DNA from: an uncultured Colwellia sp.
GTDB taxonomy: Bacteria; Pseudomonadota; Gammaproteobacteria; Enterobacterales; Alteromonadaceae
Length of the DNA stretch: 64,000 nt
Direction: 5' to 3'
NCBI GenBank assembly: GCA_913058145.1
Contig: CAJXQM010000001.1
Location: 62,001 to 126,000, forward strand
The notes under the pieces are model-generated. The model saw only the letters and a list, made by a program, of their open reading frames with translations. It did not search any database and was not told the DNA's origin. Shown piece by piece: positions 47,926 through 52,979 of this stretch. The translations under genes were made by a program, and so were the position numbers. The first letter of the stretch is position 1. Every line of letters starts with the position of its first letter.

Positions 47926-48738
47926 ATGCCAGTAAACGATACTAATAATGTCTCTTCACCATTGAGTGCCTATGCATTACGACAGCTGATCCGAATACAA
48001 GACTTTACCGGTAATACCTCGGGTTTTGCCCAAGGCTGCGTGCAAGGTAATATTGTTATTTTACCTAAAGAGTGGGCAGGTGATTTTTTACAATTTTGTT
48101 TATTTAATCCAAAACCTTGTCCGTTAATTGGTATGTCAACCAATGCGGGGGATTTTCTATTACCTGAGCTTGGTCAAGATATTGATATTCGCACTGATGT
48201 ACCCGGTTATCGCTTGTTTGAGAATGGCCTGCTAACACAAGAGTTAACCCATATTAAAGACCTGTGGCGTGATGATTTAGTGACGTTCGTTTTAGGGTGT
48301 TCTTTTTCGTTTGAGGAAGCACTGATTGCTGATGGACTTGAAATTCGCAATATTAGCGAAGGTAAAAATGTGCCTATGTACCGAACTAATATAGCCTGTA
48401 AATCAGCTGGGCGTTTTAGTAGTGAAACAGTGGTGAGCATGCGGCCTATGTTGGCAAAAAATGCTATACGTGCAATACAAATTTGTAGTCGTTTTCCCTC
48501 AGTACATGGTGCGCCAATACATTTTGGTGATCCTAAACTGATTGGCATTGATGATATTAATACCCCTGACTATGGTGATGCCGTAACGATTAACGAACAT
48601 GAAGTACCTGTTTTTTGGGCTTGTGGTGTTACTCCTCAACTTGCATTAGAACAAACCAAACCGCCATTTTGCATTACCCATAGCCCCGGAAAAATGTTGG
48701 TTACTGATATAATAAACTCCACATTAGCGGTACTGTAA
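47926..48738 (+). CDS. DUF1445/YcsI family protein (putative hydro-lyase; N-terminal half of D-glutamate cyclase)
   Basis: The 270-residue protein has the family motifs: [25 protein letters not shown] (about 38-62), [18 protein letters not shown] (about 125-142), [28 protein letters not shown] and [13 protein letters not shown]. The family is annotated as hydro-lyase. In vertebrate DGLUCY this domain is fused to DUF4392, and the whole acts on D-glutamate. Here it is the first gene of an operon with pxpABC and a DUF4392 gene, so a joint role in D-glutamate or 5-oxoproline conversion is likely. CGGAG precedes the ATG; a terminator separates it from the gene before. Confidence 0.88.
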
Positions 48739-48762
48739 GGCTATTATTAATAGGAAAAAAAG

Positions 48763-49488
48763 ATGAAATTAAATTGTGATTTAGGTGAAAGCTTTGGTAG
48801 TTGGTCTATGGGCTTAGATGAACAGGTCATGCCCCATATAGATCAAGCCAATATTGCTTGTGGCTTTCATGCTGGCGATCCTTTAGTGATGCAAAAAACT
48901 CTTGAATTAGCGAAAGCGCACAATGTTATTGTTGGTGCGCATCCGGGGTATCCTGATCTGGGTGGTTTTGGTCGCCGTTCTATGAATTGCTCTACCGATG
49001 AGATTATTGCGCTAGTGACTTATCAAGTAGCCGCTATTGACGGTGTGGCTAAATCGCTAGGACTTGATCTTGACTATGTTAAACCTCATGGTGCTTTGTA
49101 CAATGATATGATGGTACAAGAAAATGTGCGTGAGGCGATACTGATGGCACTATCTAACTATCACAAACCGCTTAAGTTAATGTTACAAGCAACACCACAA
49201 ATTGATCAACATAGAACAGAGGCTAAAGCCTTTGGTATTGACGTGTTAAGTGAAGCCTTTGCCGACCGTTGTTATGCTGATGATGGCAAGTTATTAGCAC
49301 GCAGCAAAGTCGGTGCAGTGCACAATAAAGAAAAAATGCTTGCCCAAGTTAAGCAGTTAAAAGAGCACGGGTGTGTTACAACGGTTAGTGGTCATGTTTT
49401 AGCATTAAACGCCGATAGCTTATGTGTCCATGGTGATAATATTGAAGGGGTACTGGCTATTGAGGCAATTAGGGATCTAATAGGTTAA
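48763..49488 (+). CDS. pxpA: 5-oxoprolinase subunit A (LamB/YcsF family)
   Basis: Part of the bacterial ATP-dependent 5-oxoprolinase PxpABC, which opens 5-oxoproline to glutamate. The 241-residue protein has the family motifs DLGESFGSW (residues 5-13), HIDQANIACGFHAGDP (about 25-40), GAHPGYPDLGGFGRRSM and VKPHGALYNDM. It lies 24 bases after the DUF1445 gene and overlaps pxpB by one base (TAATG). AGGAAAAAAAG precedes the ATG. Nothing is missing. Confidence 0.94.
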   Translation: MKLNCDLGESFGSWSMGLDEQVMPHIDQANIACGFHAGDPLVMQKTLELAKAHNVIVGAHPGYPDLGGFGRRSMNCSTDEIIALVTYQVAAIDGVAKSLGLDLDYVKPHGALYNDMMVQENVREAILMALSNYHKPLKLMLQATPQIDQHRTEAKAFGIDVLSEAFADRCYADDGKLLARSKVGAVHNKEKMLAQVKQLKEHGCVTTVSGHVLALNADSLCVHGDNIEGVLAIEAIRDLIG

Positions 49489-50231
49489 TGCTCGAGAATC
49501 TTAATATTCATATCGCTGGTGAGAACGCGTTAATTATCTATTTTGGTGAGCAAGATGGTAGCCAAGTTAGTGCTAATATTTCGGCTAAAGTTCAGCAAGC
49601 AGAGCAACTTATACGTAAAGCTATGGCGCAATCGTTAGCACCAGATATAATTGATTTAGTGCCATCATATGCGTCCTTGATGGTGATGTTTAATATGATG
49701 ACCACAGATTATCATCAAATACGAAACCAACTACGTACCTTATTACAATCTATTGATCATCATTTGAAAGAGCAAGTTAATCACGATGAAGCTAACATCG
49801 TTGAACTGCCTGTTTATTATAGCAATGAGTCGGGCCCCGATTTATCGGTTATTGCGCAACGTGCTCAATTAACGGTTGAACAAGTGATTGAACTTCATCA
49901 AGCACAAGAATATCGTGTTTATGCCATTGGCTTTGCTCCTGGTTTTGCTTACTTAGGTGAGGTAGACGAACGAATTTCTGCGCCAAGGTTGGGCACCCCT
50001 AGAATGAAAGTACCTAAAGGGGCTGTTGCTATTGCGGATAGACAAACAGCTATTTACCCTCGTGTTTCCCCCGGTGGTTGGAATATTATTGGTCTTTGTC
50101 CCATTGATATGTTTAACGCGAAAGCCACTCCTACTATGCCGGTCAACGTGGGTGATAGAGTGAAGTTTATCGCTATTTCTAAAGACGAATTTTTTACCTT
50201 AGGCGGAACGCTAGAGGTGAGTTATGAGTAA
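49488..50231 (+). CDS. pxpB: 5-oxoprolinase subunit B (KipI/allophanate hydrolase subunit 1 family)
   Basis: The 247-residue PxpB has an N-terminal domain with NIHIAGENALIIYFGE and the C-terminal cyclophilin-like domain with VYAIGFAPGFAYLGEVDERI (about 142-161), GTPRMKVPKGAVAIADRQTAIYP and SPGGWNIIGLCP. It forms a complex with PxpC for ATP-dependent activation of 5-oxoproline. It starts in a one-base overlap with pxpA and its end overlaps pxpC by 8 bases. Confidence 0.94.
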   Translation: MLENLNIHIAGENALIIYFGEQDGSQVSANISAKVQQAEQLIRKAMAQSLAPDIIDLVPSYASLMVMFNMMTTDYHQIRNQLRTLLQSIDHHLKEQVNHDEANIVELPVYYSNESGPDLSVIAQRAQLTVEQVIELHQAQEYRVYAIGFAPGFAYLGEVDERISAPRLGTPRMKVPKGAVAIADRQTAIYPRVSPGGWNIIGLCPIDMFNAKATPTMPVNVGDRVKFIAISKDEFFTLGGTLEVSYE

Positions 50232-51210
50232 TTCCTCATTAGCACAGGGCTTTTTAGTTAAGCAAGCCGGTATGCTAAGTCTTATTCAAGATGCCGGTCG
50301 TTTTGGTGCGTTTAATCTAGGTTTAACCAATGGGGGGCCTGTCGATTTACTCGCCTTTCAATGGGCTAATCGTCTATGTCGCAACACGTTAAACGCCACC
50401 GCGATTGAAATTAGTGTAGGGGGTTTAATATTAATTGCACAAGTTGATACCACCCTAGCCATTACGGGTGCTAACATGCCGCTAACCATTAATGGGCAAA
50501 CAAAAGGGTTATGGCGGAGTTATCACGTAAAAGCGGGTGATGAGATTGCTTTAGGTTTTGCCACTCAAGGTGTTCGTTGTTATTTAGCGGTTGCCGATGG
50601 TTTTAATATTACGCCCAGTTTTGGAAGCACAGCCACGGTTTGTCGTGAAGGGATTGGTGGTTTAAGGGGAGAGAAATTATTGGCAGGCGATATGTTAGCT
50701 TGTACTTGCCGCGACAGCCATCAAAACACCCATAACAACAGTCATAAAAATAAAAACTTGATATTAATCGAAAAATTAAGACCTGCCTATACGGATGAAA
50801 TAATATTACATACCGTACCAAGCTATCAACAACGGCATTTTACTTCATACCAACAACGCTTGTTTTTTTCTACTGAATATACGGTGAGCAAAAGCTTTGA
50901 TCGTATGGGATATAGATTAGAAGGTCAGGCAATTACGTGTGATGTTGAGGGTATTTTATCGGAAGGGATTTGTCATGGTGCCGTACAAATCCCCGCTGAT
51001 GGTCAACCCATTGTTTTACTCAATGATAGGCAAACCATTGGCGGCTATCCTAAAATTGGTGCTGTTTCGTCGGTAGATACGGCTAAATTAGGGCAATTAA
51101 ACCAAGGGGGTAAAGTACATTTTGAACCCATTAGTATGGAACAGGCACACAATATATTTCATTTAAATTTAAGCGGTTTTAATCGTACAGAGTTAGTGAC
51201 TTGTGATTGA
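50224..51210 (+). CDS. pxpC: 5-oxoprolinase subunit C (KipA/allophanate hydrolase subunit 2 family)
   Basis: The 328-residue PxpC has the usual motifs: SLIQDAGRFGAFNLGLTNGGPVD (about 19-41), TLAITGANMPLTING, CYLAVADGFNITPSFGSTAT, then SKSFDRMGYRLEG and VQIPADGQPIVLLNDRQTIGGYPKIG near the C-terminus. A short His/Asn/Lys-rich insert (DSHQNTHNNSHKNKN, about 160-175) is a local expansion. It overlaps pxpB by 8 bases and the DUF4392 gene follows after 30 bases. Confidence 0.94.
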   Translation: MSNSSLAQGFLVKQAGMLSLIQDAGRFGAFNLGLTNGGPVDLLAFQWANRLCRNTLNATAIEISVGGLILIAQVDTTLAITGANMPLTINGQTKGLWRSYHVKAGDEIALGFATQGVRCYLAVADGFNITPSFGSTATVCREGIGGLRGEKLLAGDMLACTCRDSHQNTHNNSHKNKNLILIEKLRPAYTDEIILHTVPSYQQRHFTSYQQRLFFSTEYTVSKSFDRMGYRLEGQAITCDVEGILSEGICHGAVQIPADGQPIVLLNDRQTIGGYPKIGAVSSVDTAKLGQLNQGGKVHFEPISMEQAHNIFHLNLSGFNRTELVTCD

Positions 51211-51240
51211 TATTGTAAAAATAAAGAGGGACTAGCGTTA

Positions 51241-52089
51241 ATGACTCAATTAGCTTCACATGAACAAGCGCTTAGTGAACAAATAGAAAGCATGCTTGTT
51301 GAGCGTAATTTACGAGGCATGAAAGGCTTACAAACGCAGCTTAGTGCCGGTTACTGCTTACGTGCGGCTAAAGTAATGCGTGATATTAAAGGCACTATAT
51401 TTATTGGTACGGGCTTTCCTGTCGAAGATACGTTTGAAACGGATGGGCCGGTGGGTGCCTTGATTTTATATCGTGCGCTGGAAATTTTGGGCGCAAATCC
51501 GGTTCTGGTTTGTGGCACACCGATGGCAACCGCTTTTCAACAAGACTATCGAACCTGTGTGATCAGTGTAGGTAAAAAAGAGATGGGTTTGGTGGAAGCA
51601 AAGCGCGCTTTAGCCCATTATAAACCTGAGGTTATCATCTCAATAGAGCACCCTGGTTTAGCTGAAAATGGTTGTTATCATAATATGCTCGGTGAAGATA
51701 TTAGTGCACGGGCTGCTTGTTTTGATTTTTTTATGGATGAAGCAAATTGTCCTACTATTGCTATTGGTGATGGAGGTAATGAAATTGGTATGGGTAATGT
51801 AAAGGCATTTTTAGTAGAGCTAAACATTATTCCTGCGGTAACTGAATGTGATGAATTGATTATTAGTGATGTCTCAAATTGGGGCGTTTATGGTATTTTA
51901 GCGTTCTTAAGTATTTGGTCTAAGCAGGATTTATTAAATCAGACTTGCCCAGAACAGATCTTAAAATATATATCAAATTTAGGGAGCGTCGATGGCGTTA
52001 CCCGTAAAAACGAATTAACAGAAGATAGTCTACCGGCATCGGAAGGTATTGCTTTGATTGCCCGAATTAGAGCCTTAATTGGTTATTAA
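51241..52089 (+). CDS. DUF4392 protein, D-glutamate cyclase-like
   Basis: The 282-residue protein matches DUF4392, the C-terminal domain of the eukaryotic D-glutamate cyclase. Motifs are IFIGTGFPVEDTFETDGPVGA (about 54-74), ISIEHPGLAENGCYHNMLGEDIS and TIAIGDGGNEIGMGNVK (about 175-191). The reaction in the eukaryotic enzyme is D-glutamate to 5-oxo-D-proline. It lies 30 bases after pxpC and 29 bases before the aminotransferase gene. A weak ribosome site (GAGGGA) stands somewhat far from the ATG; the start may be imprecise. Domain clear, activity inferred. Confidence 0.85.
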   Translation: MTQLASHEQALSEQIESMLVERNLRGMKGLQTQLSAGYCLRAAKVMRDIKGTIFIGTGFPVEDTFETDGPVGALILYRALEILGANPVLVCGTPMATAFQQDYRTCVISVGKKEMGLVEAKRALAHYKPEVIISIEHPGLAENGCYHNMLGEDISARAACFDFFMDEANCPTIAIGDGGNEIGMGNVKAFLVELNIIPAVTECDELIISDVSNWGVYGILAFLSIWSKQDLLNQTCPEQILKYISNLGSVDGVTRKNELTEDSLPASEGIALIARIRALIGY

Positions 52090-52118
52090 GATACGTAGTA
52101 GAATGATAGGAAAATAAA

Positions 52119-52979
52119 ATGAACACAGTATTTTTAAATGGCGATTATATGCCTATTGAAGAAGCTAAAATTTCTCCCCTAGATCGTGGCTTTTTATTTG
52201 GCGACGGCATATATGAAGTGATACCGTCTTACTTTGGTGAAATGGTGGGCTTTAAAGGCCATATTAATCGTCTGAACGATGGACTTAATGAGATTGGTAT
52301 TGAGCTAAATTGGAATGATGCACAATGGCAAACATTGTGTGACACCTTAATTGAAAAAAATGGTGCTGGCCCGTTAGGCCTTTATTTACATGTGAGTCGC
52401 GGTACCGATACTAAGCGTTTTCATGCGTTTCCAGTTAATGTAACACCAACAGTATTTGCTATGGCTTTTGAAATTCCCGTAGCTAAAACACCGGATTTAG
52501 TTACTGTAGGCAAAGGTTATGCCTTGAGTAGCAGCGAAGATCTACGCTGGCAACGTTGTCAAATAAAGTCTACATCGTTACTTGGCAATGTTTTACATTT
52601 TCAAGAAGGGTATGAAGCCGGTAGCCAAGAAACCTTACTCTATAATAGTAATAATGAATTAACTGAAGCGAGTTCATCTAATATTTTTATTGTTAAAGAC
52701 GGTGTTATTGCTACGCCCATTCAAGATAATCAAATTTTACCAGGTATTACCCGCCGGCTACTAATTGATATATTGGCTAAAGAGGGTTCTATACCGCTTG
52801 AAGAGCGAATCATTACCCTTGAAGAAGTTAATGCGGCTGATGAAATTTGGATAACGAGTTCAACAAAAGAAATTGTCCCCGTTACGCAGCTAGACAGTAA
52901 AAAGGTTGGCGATGGTAACGTTGGAACCGTTTGGTTAAAAGCAGCGACGTTATATGCGATAAATAAATTTTCTTATTAA
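52119..52979 (+). CDS. D-amino acid aminotransferase (class IV PLP enzyme)
   Basis: The 286-residue enzyme fits D-alanine aminotransferase: PLDRGFLFGDGIYEVIPSY (residues 20-38), the PLP lysine in WQRCQIKSTSLLGNVL (about 146-161), the Glu in NNELTEASSSNIFIVKDG and the phosphate-binding LPGITRRLL. It moves the amino group between D-amino acids and 2-oxo acids, typically D-alanine + 2-oxoglutarate giving pyruvate + D-glutamate. As last gene of this operon it would supply D-glutamate to the cyclase. A branched-chain or ADC-lyase role is less likely from the motifs. Confidence 0.88.
   Translation: MNTVFLNGDYMPIEEAKISPLDRGFLFGDGIYEVIPSYFGEMVGFKGHINRLNDGLNEIGIELNWNDAQWQTLCDTLIEKNGAGPLGLYLHVSRGTDTKRFHAFPVNVTPTVFAMAFEIPVAKTPDLVTVGKGYALSSSEDLRWQRCQIKSTSLLGNVLHFQEGYEAGSQETLLYNSNNELTEASSSNIFIVKDGVIATPIQDNQILPGITRRLLIDILAKEGSIPLEERIITLEEVNAADEIWITSSTKEIVPVTQLDSKKVGDGNVGTVWLKAATLYAINKFSY

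Follow-up and report, generated by a model that had tools for sequence, protein, structure and literature searches.

A six-gene operon in an uncultured Colwellia sp. is probably, judging from its gene content and genomic company, the D-glutamate branch of peptidoglycan utilisation. The operon occupies positions 47926–52979 of the 64,000-nucleotide stretch of contig CAJXQM010000001.1 that we analysed (the window), and carries, in this order, genes for a DUF1445 protein, the three subunits of 5-oxoprolinase (PxpA, PxpB and PxpC), a DUF4392 protein and a class IV aminotransferase of the D-amino-acid type (DAAT). We found that this arrangement is a real, conserved unit, and the genes that accompany it indicate D-amino acids and the breakdown of cell walls; the link to peptidoglycan is new here. 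In the route that we propose, peptidoglycan breakdown would supply D-alanine and D-glutamate, which DAAT would interconvert, and in many relatives an adjoining alanine racemase would connect D-alanine to L-alanine. DUF4392, as a Mn2+ enzyme, would close D-glutamate to 5-oxo-D-proline, DUF1445 would epimerise 5-oxoproline by inverting its alpha centre, and PxpABC would reopen the ring with ATP to give glutamate, the ATP step making the route irreversible. The net reaction would convert D-glutamate and ATP to L-glutamate (cyclise, epimerise, reopen). Where the glutamate racemase MurI is not found, DAAT would probably make D-glutamate for the wall as well, and the cyclase route would drain the surplus. 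For the window's bacterium, we infer these substrates, the direction of flux and the epimerase role. The genes, and the terminator before them, are:

47926–48738, + strand: DUF1445 (PF07286; 'D-glutamate cyclase', 'putative hydro-lyase'), 270 amino acids; PF07286 224 bits (cut-off 25)
48763–49488, + strand: pxpA, 5-oxoprolinase subunit A, 241 amino acids; PF03746 297 bits, NF003816 337.5 bits (cut-off 213)
49488–50231, + strand: pxpB, 5-oxoprolinase subunit B, 247 amino acids; PF02682 222 bits, TIGR00370 167 bits (cut-off 146)
50224–51210, + strand: pxpC, 5-oxoprolinase subunit C, 328 amino acids; PF02626 272 bits, TIGR00724 243.5 bits (cut-off 230)
51241–52089, + strand: DUF4392 (PF14336), 282 amino acids, proposed Mn2+-dependent D-glutamate cyclase; PF14336 215 bits (cut-off 27.9)
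52119–52979, + strand: class IV aminotransferase of the D-amino-acid type (DAAT), 286 amino acids; PF01063 166 bits
47737–47762, + strand: intrinsic terminator, an 11-pair stem followed by a T-rich tail, probably of the upstream gene

All six open reading frames, each scoring far above its Pfam cut-off, agree in position, strand and Pfam family with the preliminary description of this DNA, which had them in one run with gaps of 30 bases or less or overlaps; the junctions are, in gene order, a 24-base gap, overlaps of 1 and 8 bases, and gaps of 30 and 29 bases. That description also placed a strong terminator before the operon. A hairpin with a T-rich tail does stand there, about 160 bases from the operon start, although the scan returned 8 sites against 6.1 expected in shuffles and is by itself little proof. 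Among the NCBIfam models, the DUF1445 protein exceeded NF003969 (400 bits, cut-off 324), PxpC reached the broader TIGR00724 but not the equivalog NF045499 (203 of 500 bits), DAAT did not reach the equivalog TIGR01121 (228 of 277 bits), and the profile scan returned no match for the DUF4392 protein. The three 5-oxoprolinase subunits are all present and contiguous, and a profile search found PF14336 and PF02626 each in single copy in the window's genome.

We compared the operon across a class sample of 229 genomes and a family sample of 196 genomes in 52 genera. Because the family genomes are related, their counts are not independent tests, and the figures from a subsample of one genome per genus (52 genomes), given beside the full counts, are safer. 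PF14336 was found in 40 of the 196 family genomes, spread over 17 of the 52 genera, but in only 1 of 229 class genomes, that one being the window's own; we therefore rejected the idea that DUF4392 is a general gammaproteobacterial gene. Around all 40 family loci, the fetched stretch held pxpC in 36, DUF1445 in 36, pxpA in 35 and DAAT in 28. A wider scan for DUF4392 relatives gave at least 524 matches. The best 80, which we kept, are Gammaproteobacteria wherever a rank below Proteobacteria is given (one is named as Proteobacteria only and one as an Osedax symbiont only), and 61 of them had enough flank for counting neighbours on the same strand within 6.5 kb. DUF1445 was present in 57 of these 61, pxpA, pxpB and pxpC in 60 each and DAAT in 54; alanine-racemase-like genes were counted in 24 and LysR-like genes in 9. 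The gene order of the operon is kept far beyond chance. PF02626 (pxpC) occurs in 182 of the 196 family genomes, which means that pxpABC is nearly universal, and that it is the other two, DUF1445 and DUF4392, whose presence varies, and varies jointly. A viral origin was also considered; a single-sequence DUF4392 query, which reaches close relatives only, had no match in viral contigs.

The preliminary description took DUF1445 and DUF4392 for the split halves of the eukaryotic D-glutamate cyclase DGLUCY, and proposed a search for their co-occurrence with pxpABC across genomes. That search upheld the pairing. PF07286 was above its cut-off in 42 of the 196 family genomes; 39 genomes had both genes, 1 had DUF4392 only, 3 had DUF1445 only and 153 had neither, so that DUF1445 accompanied DUF4392 in 39 of 40 genomes against 3 of the 156 others, and at one genome per genus in 12 of 12 against 0 of 40 (both 12, either alone 0 and 0, neither 40). 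In the exception with DUF4392 only (G337), a contig edge falls inside pxpA. DUF1445 directly precedes DUF4392, without pxpABC, in 4 of the 40 loci (L059, L066, L067 and L071), pxpC lying elsewhere in the genome, and the two genes are 27 to 62 kb apart in G393, G244 and G290. The notion of halves did not carry over to DUF1445 elsewhere, where it occurs without DUF4392. In the three family genomes with DUF1445 only (L240–L242), a GH3 gene, DUF1445 and pxpA are consecutive. These belong to a genus (g213; L196–L199, L240–L242) that has pxpBC without an adjoining pxpA and, in three genomes, pxpA and DUF1445 behind the GH3 gene; a DUF1445–pxpA pair likewise stands behind a GH3 gene in Pseudoalteromonas sp. 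CF6-2 (L253).

The suggestion that the operon belongs to the recycling of cell-wall D-amino acids gained support from an association with NamZ and MurQ-type genes. NamZ, an exo-beta-N-acetylmuramidase, was found in 36 of the 40 genomes with DUF4392 against 54 of the 156 others (10 of 12 against 12 of 40 at one genome per genus). It lay within 40 kb of DUF4392, a limit chosen after the distances were known, in 20 of the 36 genomes, or 20 of the 22 with both genes on one contig (7 of 10 per genus). As a control we used 31 DUF4392-free genomes with NamZ, in which pxpC, taken among the matches listed, was within 40 kb of NamZ in 2 (2 of 11 with both on one contig); DAAT was within 40 kb of NamZ in 3 of 26 DUF4392-free genomes. 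One of the two control genomes with a nearby pxpC, G384, has a short DUF1445 remnant below the cut-off (G384:C37:66126-66200), 1.6 kb from pxpC and 11 kb from NamZ, and this locus looks like a decayed cluster.

Genes in ten of the 20 near NamZ stretches, chosen by hand, were named by similarity, with families scanned only for parts of L261 and L263–L265. A MurK/MurQ-type gene stood beside NamZ in all ten; an FAD/Fe-S hydroxyacid-oxidase-like gene was there in eight of them and an SSF transporter likewise in eight, and there was an N-acetylmuramoyl-alanine amidase gene in L264 and an NlpC/P60 gene in L265. At L053, a MurK–MurQ fusion, NamZ and an opposite-strand RpiR/SIS gene are followed by DUF1445, pxpABC, DUF4392 and DAAT. 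The name MurQ (etherase) was confirmed on two scanned proteins (414 and 420 against a cut-off of 302), and a scanned alanine racemase scored 361 against 168 bits. The GH3 protein is NagZ-like and fell below the hexosaminidase cut-off in both scanned cases (183 and 181 of 207), as did the NagX-like proteins below their own; 'MurK' stands for a BadF-type kinase that matches NagK best among the NCBIfam models, below cut-off, and the MurR-like protein is an RpiR/SIS regulator below its cut-offs. The FAD/Fe-S oxidase, below all its cut-offs, may be a D-lactate oxidase, given the product of MurQ. Of the 40 DUF4392 loci, 12 had some amino-sugar or peptidoglycan gene within 8 kb. Contig C9 of the window's genome carries NamZ together with a MurQ-like gene and an alanine-racemase-like gene. 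At a locus with neither DUF1445 nor DUF4392 (L273, G241), pxpABC stands directly within a run of NagZ-like, SSF, MurK/MurQ-type, NamZ and FAD/Fe-S oxidase genes.

DAAT matches PDB entries 4pbc and 1daa. The canonical motif (F26, Y31, [VA]33, [KRPT]35, xYxQ and RxH; Table 2 of PMC10003956) is present at five of six places (F27, Y32, V34, P36 and R100-x-H102), and the place xYxQ reads LYLH. The expected reaction of such an enzyme is D-alanine + 2-oxoglutarate = pyruvate + D-glutamate. We counted DAAT as strong at 330 bits or more against our own alignment (84 genomes), a second band lying at 236–307 bits. Strong DAAT was present in 38 of 40 genomes with DUF4392 against 46 of 156 others, and, counting every band, DAAT was present in all 40 against 61 of 156. 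MurI, counted above the TIGR00067 cut-off, was found in 17 of 40 genomes with DUF4392 against 101 of 156 others; the other 23 DUF4392 genomes all have some DAAT. Strong DAAT and MurI avoid each other (both 26, DAAT only 58, MurI only 92, neither 20; at one genome per genus 8, 17, 24 and 3), a pattern that suggests DAAT as a substitute for glutamate racemase in supplying D-glutamate in many family genomes; among the genomes behind 32 of the 80 named loci, MurI was above its cut-off in 12. In many of these bacteria, DAAT is probably a source of the D-glutamate that goes into the wall, and since no match to MurI was found in the window's genome (97% complete), it may also make D-glutamate there. 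DAAT may in this way do more than feed the catabolic route of the preliminary description. Of the 196 genomes, 15 have neither MurI above the cut-off nor any DAAT band (G233, G277, G282, G312, G317, G340, G345, G365, G369, G385, G389, G402, G404, G408 and G420); 14 of the 15 come from two genera (g201 and g244).

The avoidance between DAAT and MurI would also suit a different account, in which DAAT is biosynthetic and replaces MurI, pxpABC repairs stray 5-oxo-L-proline, DUF1445 and DUF4392 do other jobs, and the operon is shared for the sake of regulation. So would the neighbourhood of pxpC: in 57 hand-picked pxpC loci (52 drawn from the 142 genomes that have PF02626 but no DUF4392, and 5 extra copies from genomes with DUF4392), DAAT adjoins pxpABC in 17 that have neither DUF1445 nor DUF4392 beside them. 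We consider this account unlikely, because it leaves unexplained both the link between DUF4392 and NamZ and the avoidance of DgcN described below, and because MurI is above its cut-off in 17 of the 40 genomes that carry DUF4392.

The DgcN/DgcA pathway of marine bacteria acetylates D-glutamate and then racemises it, the N-acylated form being racemisable without a cofactor. Like the route that we propose, it has the net effect of turning D-glutamate into L-glutamate at an energy cost, but it does so with other proteins, mostly in other genomes. Strong DgcN (PF07755) was found in 51 genomes, leaving out G231, which is above the cut-off only with its neighbours, and five genomes below the cut-off. 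DUF4392 and DgcN tend to exclude each other: strong DgcN was present in 3 of 40 genomes with DUF4392 against 48 of 156 others (0 of 12 against 12 of 40 per genus), and among NamZ genomes in 3 of 36 with DUF4392 against 21 of 54 without. DgcN itself shows no association with NamZ (24 of 90 genomes with NamZ against 27 of 106 without), and the window's genome gave no match to PF07755. At the two loci that we checked among the 51 genomes, DgcN scored 490.8 and 457.7 bits against an NCBIfam cut-off of 480, and the DgcA-like gene beside it 352 and 400.8 bits, respectively, against 400.

For the ring closure, we propose that DUF4392 is a Mn2+-dependent D-glutamate cyclase. The protein matches TON_0340 (PDB 4dwz) with an E value of 1.5e-29, and the six metal ligands of TON_0340 align with E66, D68, E136, D177, E181 and D251, all invariant in 29 aligned sequences; in TON_0340, six acidic residues hold two Mn2+ (PMC5132392). 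The mammalian fusion of DUF1445 and DUF4392 converts D-glutamate to 5-oxo-D-proline (PMC5339696). It is quite improbable, in our judgement, that DUF4392 is instead a phosphatase, or an enzyme for some other D-amino acid, with the link to D-glutamate merely borrowed from the name of the mammalian protein. TON_0340 does have a Mn2+-dependent phosphatase activity that is abolished in D157L and E59Q, but its authors leave the natural substrate open (PMC5132392). Distant homologues on plasmids have serine/threonine dehydratase (L247 and L248), alanine racemase (L250 and L251) or Asp/Glu racemase (L252) genes nearby, whereas the recurrent partners in Gammaproteobacteria are DAAT and 5-oxoprolinase, alanine racemase being the only other partner searched for there. 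The plasmid loci L247–L252 also show transporter genes, and in L247 the beta-hydroxyaspartate (bhc) genes are a few genes away; these proteins may act on some other D-amino acid.

Hydrolysis of 5-oxo-D-proline keeps the alpha centre and yields D-glutamate again, so that a path through 5-oxo-D-proline alone cannot give L-glutamate. PxpABC is known for 5-oxo-L-proline. The pathway in the preliminary description, from D-amino acids through D-glutamate and 5-oxo-D-proline to glutamate, stands in outline but lacks this inversion. That description also left open whether PxpABC or DUF1445 deals with the D-form. In a tree of 93 PxpC sequences, made by a quick method with SH-aLRT support only, the 36 sequences borne by clusters do not form one clade; they require 11 changes, at least 5 of them forced by starred branches. 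The window's PxpC belongs to a starred group of 13 sequences, 9 of them without the cluster, including six from the same genus, and falls within a set of 7 (support 92, not starred) whose other 6 members lack the cluster, three of them from the same genus. The six cluster-free genomes of the same genus have no PF14336, no PF07286 and no strong DAAT, and MurI is above the cut-off. We thus rejected a special D-form PxpABC, as no separate PxpC clade accompanies the cyclase genes. Because the window's PxpC groups with cluster-free sequences, nothing marks its PxpABC as a D-form enzyme; we infer that it is an ordinary 5-oxo-L-prolinase and that the inversion step is missing. If so, another enzyme must invert the alpha centre.

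One way to read the pair is as two subunits of a single D-glutamate cyclase, with PxpABC opening 5-oxo-D-proline. The activity of the vertebrate fusion of both domains, the near-perfect pairing in the family, and the four loci of 40 in which DUF1445 and DUF4392 are directly adjacent in the order of the fusion all speak for it. However, opening 5-oxo-D-proline would return D-glutamate, a futile ATP cycle unless some other enzyme inverts, and the window's PxpC clusters with that of genomes lacking both genes. Moreover, DUF1445 occurs without DUF4392, and DUF4392 without a nearby DUF1445, on the plasmids opened here and, according to a 2016 paper, in archaea. We give this reading little credence.

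In the route favoured here, DUF1445 is a candidate 5-oxoproline epimerase, or else a partner in the cyclase step; it is our best candidate for the inversion, as the only product of the operon left without an assigned step. On a bold reading, the operon would be a third way from D-glutamate to L-glutamate besides MurI and DgcN/DgcA, bringing wall-derived D-glutamate into metabolism, and DUF1445 would be the first epimerase known for 5-oxoproline; this proposal is tentative and may well turn out wrong. Searches under the names of such an enzyme or its substrate found no paper on a 5-oxoproline epimerase. The DUF1445 protein matches PDB 2pif and 3db9, and its AF2 model (pLDDT 91.3) matched 2pif_B in Foldseek with TM scores of 0.85 and 0.91. 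The next fold was 3nek, MJ0159, a nitrogen-repressor-like protein with a weak resemblance to the model. Cys65, Cys125 and Cys233 also occur in one Klebsiella and one Lactiplantibacillus copy; these conserved residues are compatible with cofactor-free racemase chemistry, and prove nothing.

The places in which DUF1445 stands alone bear on its role. It was found in 4 of the 229 class genomes, and in the three other than the window's own (L274, L275 and L276) it adjoins TRAP transporter genes, with DctP next to DUF1445 in each; DctM and DctQ were also confirmed in L274, and DctM in L275. We accordingly rejected the notion that DUF1445 always goes with pxpA. The carboxylate transported in L274–L276 could be the substrate of DUF1445. 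Among plasmids, 240 records have a DUF1445 match, and the two that we opened, from Klebsiella (L254) and Lactiplantibacillus (L255), carry DUF1445 without DUF4392. Both have NRAMP, PxpA, DUF1445, carboxyltransferase and biotin carboxylase genes in a single run, where DUF1445 may serve a biotin-dependent enzyme; the gene order of L254 is like that of the Acinetobacter baumannii mumTLUHC operon (PMC5050338), as far as a putative gene-by-gene match goes. Since DUF1445 occurs without DUF4392 beside pxpA, on plasmids and beside TRAP genes, it cannot be described in general as 'half of a cyclase'. DUF1445 can occur by itself near carboxylate transport, or with PxpA, whereas in the family DUF4392 does not occur without DUF1445; this asymmetry would suit an independent enzyme whose substrate is what DUF4392 produces. 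Looking at lone DUF1445 genes undid any general link with PxpA and brought in TRAP transporters, and leaves the chances of an epimerase unchanged.

Several observations weigh against the proposed route or its epimerase step. The peptidoglycan-gene neighbourhood is weak at 5.5 kb from DUF4392 (GH3 in 4 of 40 loci, NagX-like in 4, NamZ in 1 and MurK/MurQ in 0) and clear only at 40 kb, and the window's operon is not beside its own genome's NamZ, which lies on another contig. Among 90 genomes with NamZ, 15 have none of DUF4392, strong DgcN and MurI, so that peptidoglycan use does not need any of the three. An alanine racemase gene is near DUF4392 in 3 of 40 family loci against 15 of 57 DUF4392-free pxpC loci. 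TON_0340, the one DUF4392 protein that we found assayed by itself, was called a phosphatase (PMC5132392), and six alpha- and betaproteobacterial plasmid loci with DUF4392 proteins 30–34% identical have no DUF1445 or pxp gene within 7 kb, which means that the DUF4392 family is not uniform. As for the epimerase, the mammalian fusion yielded no L-glutamate, and human excretion of 5-oxo-D-proline exceeds that of 5-oxo-L-proline (PMC5339696), which together speak against such an activity in the mammalian protein. None of the three lone DUF1445 genes of the class sample has a pxp gene, DUF4392 or DAAT within the 18 kb examined, DUF1445 is filed under no racemase family, and there is no racemase among the 50 Foldseek matches listed. 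Finally, Pseudoalteromonas sp. CF6-2 carries GH3–DUF1445–pxpA–DUF4392–DAAT, and a 2023 study in ISME J reportedly found DgcN/DgcA in this strain and showed them to be crucial for its use of D-glutamate, so that there the cyclase genes do not replace the DgcN/DgcA route. That study is cited with short remarks in PMC12363236, and PMC10232697 refers to a CF6-2 paper.

Each part of the operon has relatives in systems already described. Mammalian DGLUCY (9030617O03Rik, C14orf159) likewise has a DUF1445 followed by a DUF4392 domain, and was itself assayed for the conversion of D-glutamate to 5-oxo-D-proline, but it is one fused protein, whereas here the two domains are separate genes of an operon that also holds DAAT, and pxpABC usually lies between them. 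The pxpA–ycsG–ycsI–pxpB–pxpC genes of Bacillus subtilis and the pxpTABC genes of Corynebacterium glutamicum share the PxpA, PxpB and PxpC families but have no DUF4392, which was found in 0 of 14 control genomes. We take ycsI to be a DUF1445 gene, and a PF07286 match is present in the B. subtilis control genome. Clusters for recycling through NamZ, MurK, MurQ and NagZ lie near the operon in 20 of the 36 genomes with both NamZ and DUF4392. We know of no description of such clusters with D-glutamate cyclase or 5-oxoprolinase genes, and none was found in literature searches, none of which targeted NamZ or MurQ. The position of ycsI within the B. subtilis pxpABC operon is given in PMC10448178, and terms for the D-form and for DUF1445 are absent from the text of the C. 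glutamicum pxpTABC paper (PMC13274462). The nearest published mention of a split DGLUCY that we found is PMC11580864, where human GLUCM stands in a table with counts and full-length and split gut homologues are given. We found no description of the operon in the literature searched, with most subscription journals out of reach, and one may exist.

If the proposed route is right, it would give a physiological setting to the bacterial members of two DUF-number families shared with a human mitochondrial protein, and would add a third D-glutamate route in marine bacteria. The question of DUF1445 function would reduce to alpha-proton exchange at, or inversion of, 5-oxoproline, and an epimerase would explain lone DUF1445 genes beside PxpA or TRAP genes as a rescue of 5-oxo-D-proline made or imported otherwise. 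It would also suggest, since pxpABC and DAAT are adjacent in 17 of the 57 sampled loci even without cyclase genes beside them, that 5-oxoprolinase is an enzyme of D-amino-acid metabolism in part of these Gammaproteobacteria.

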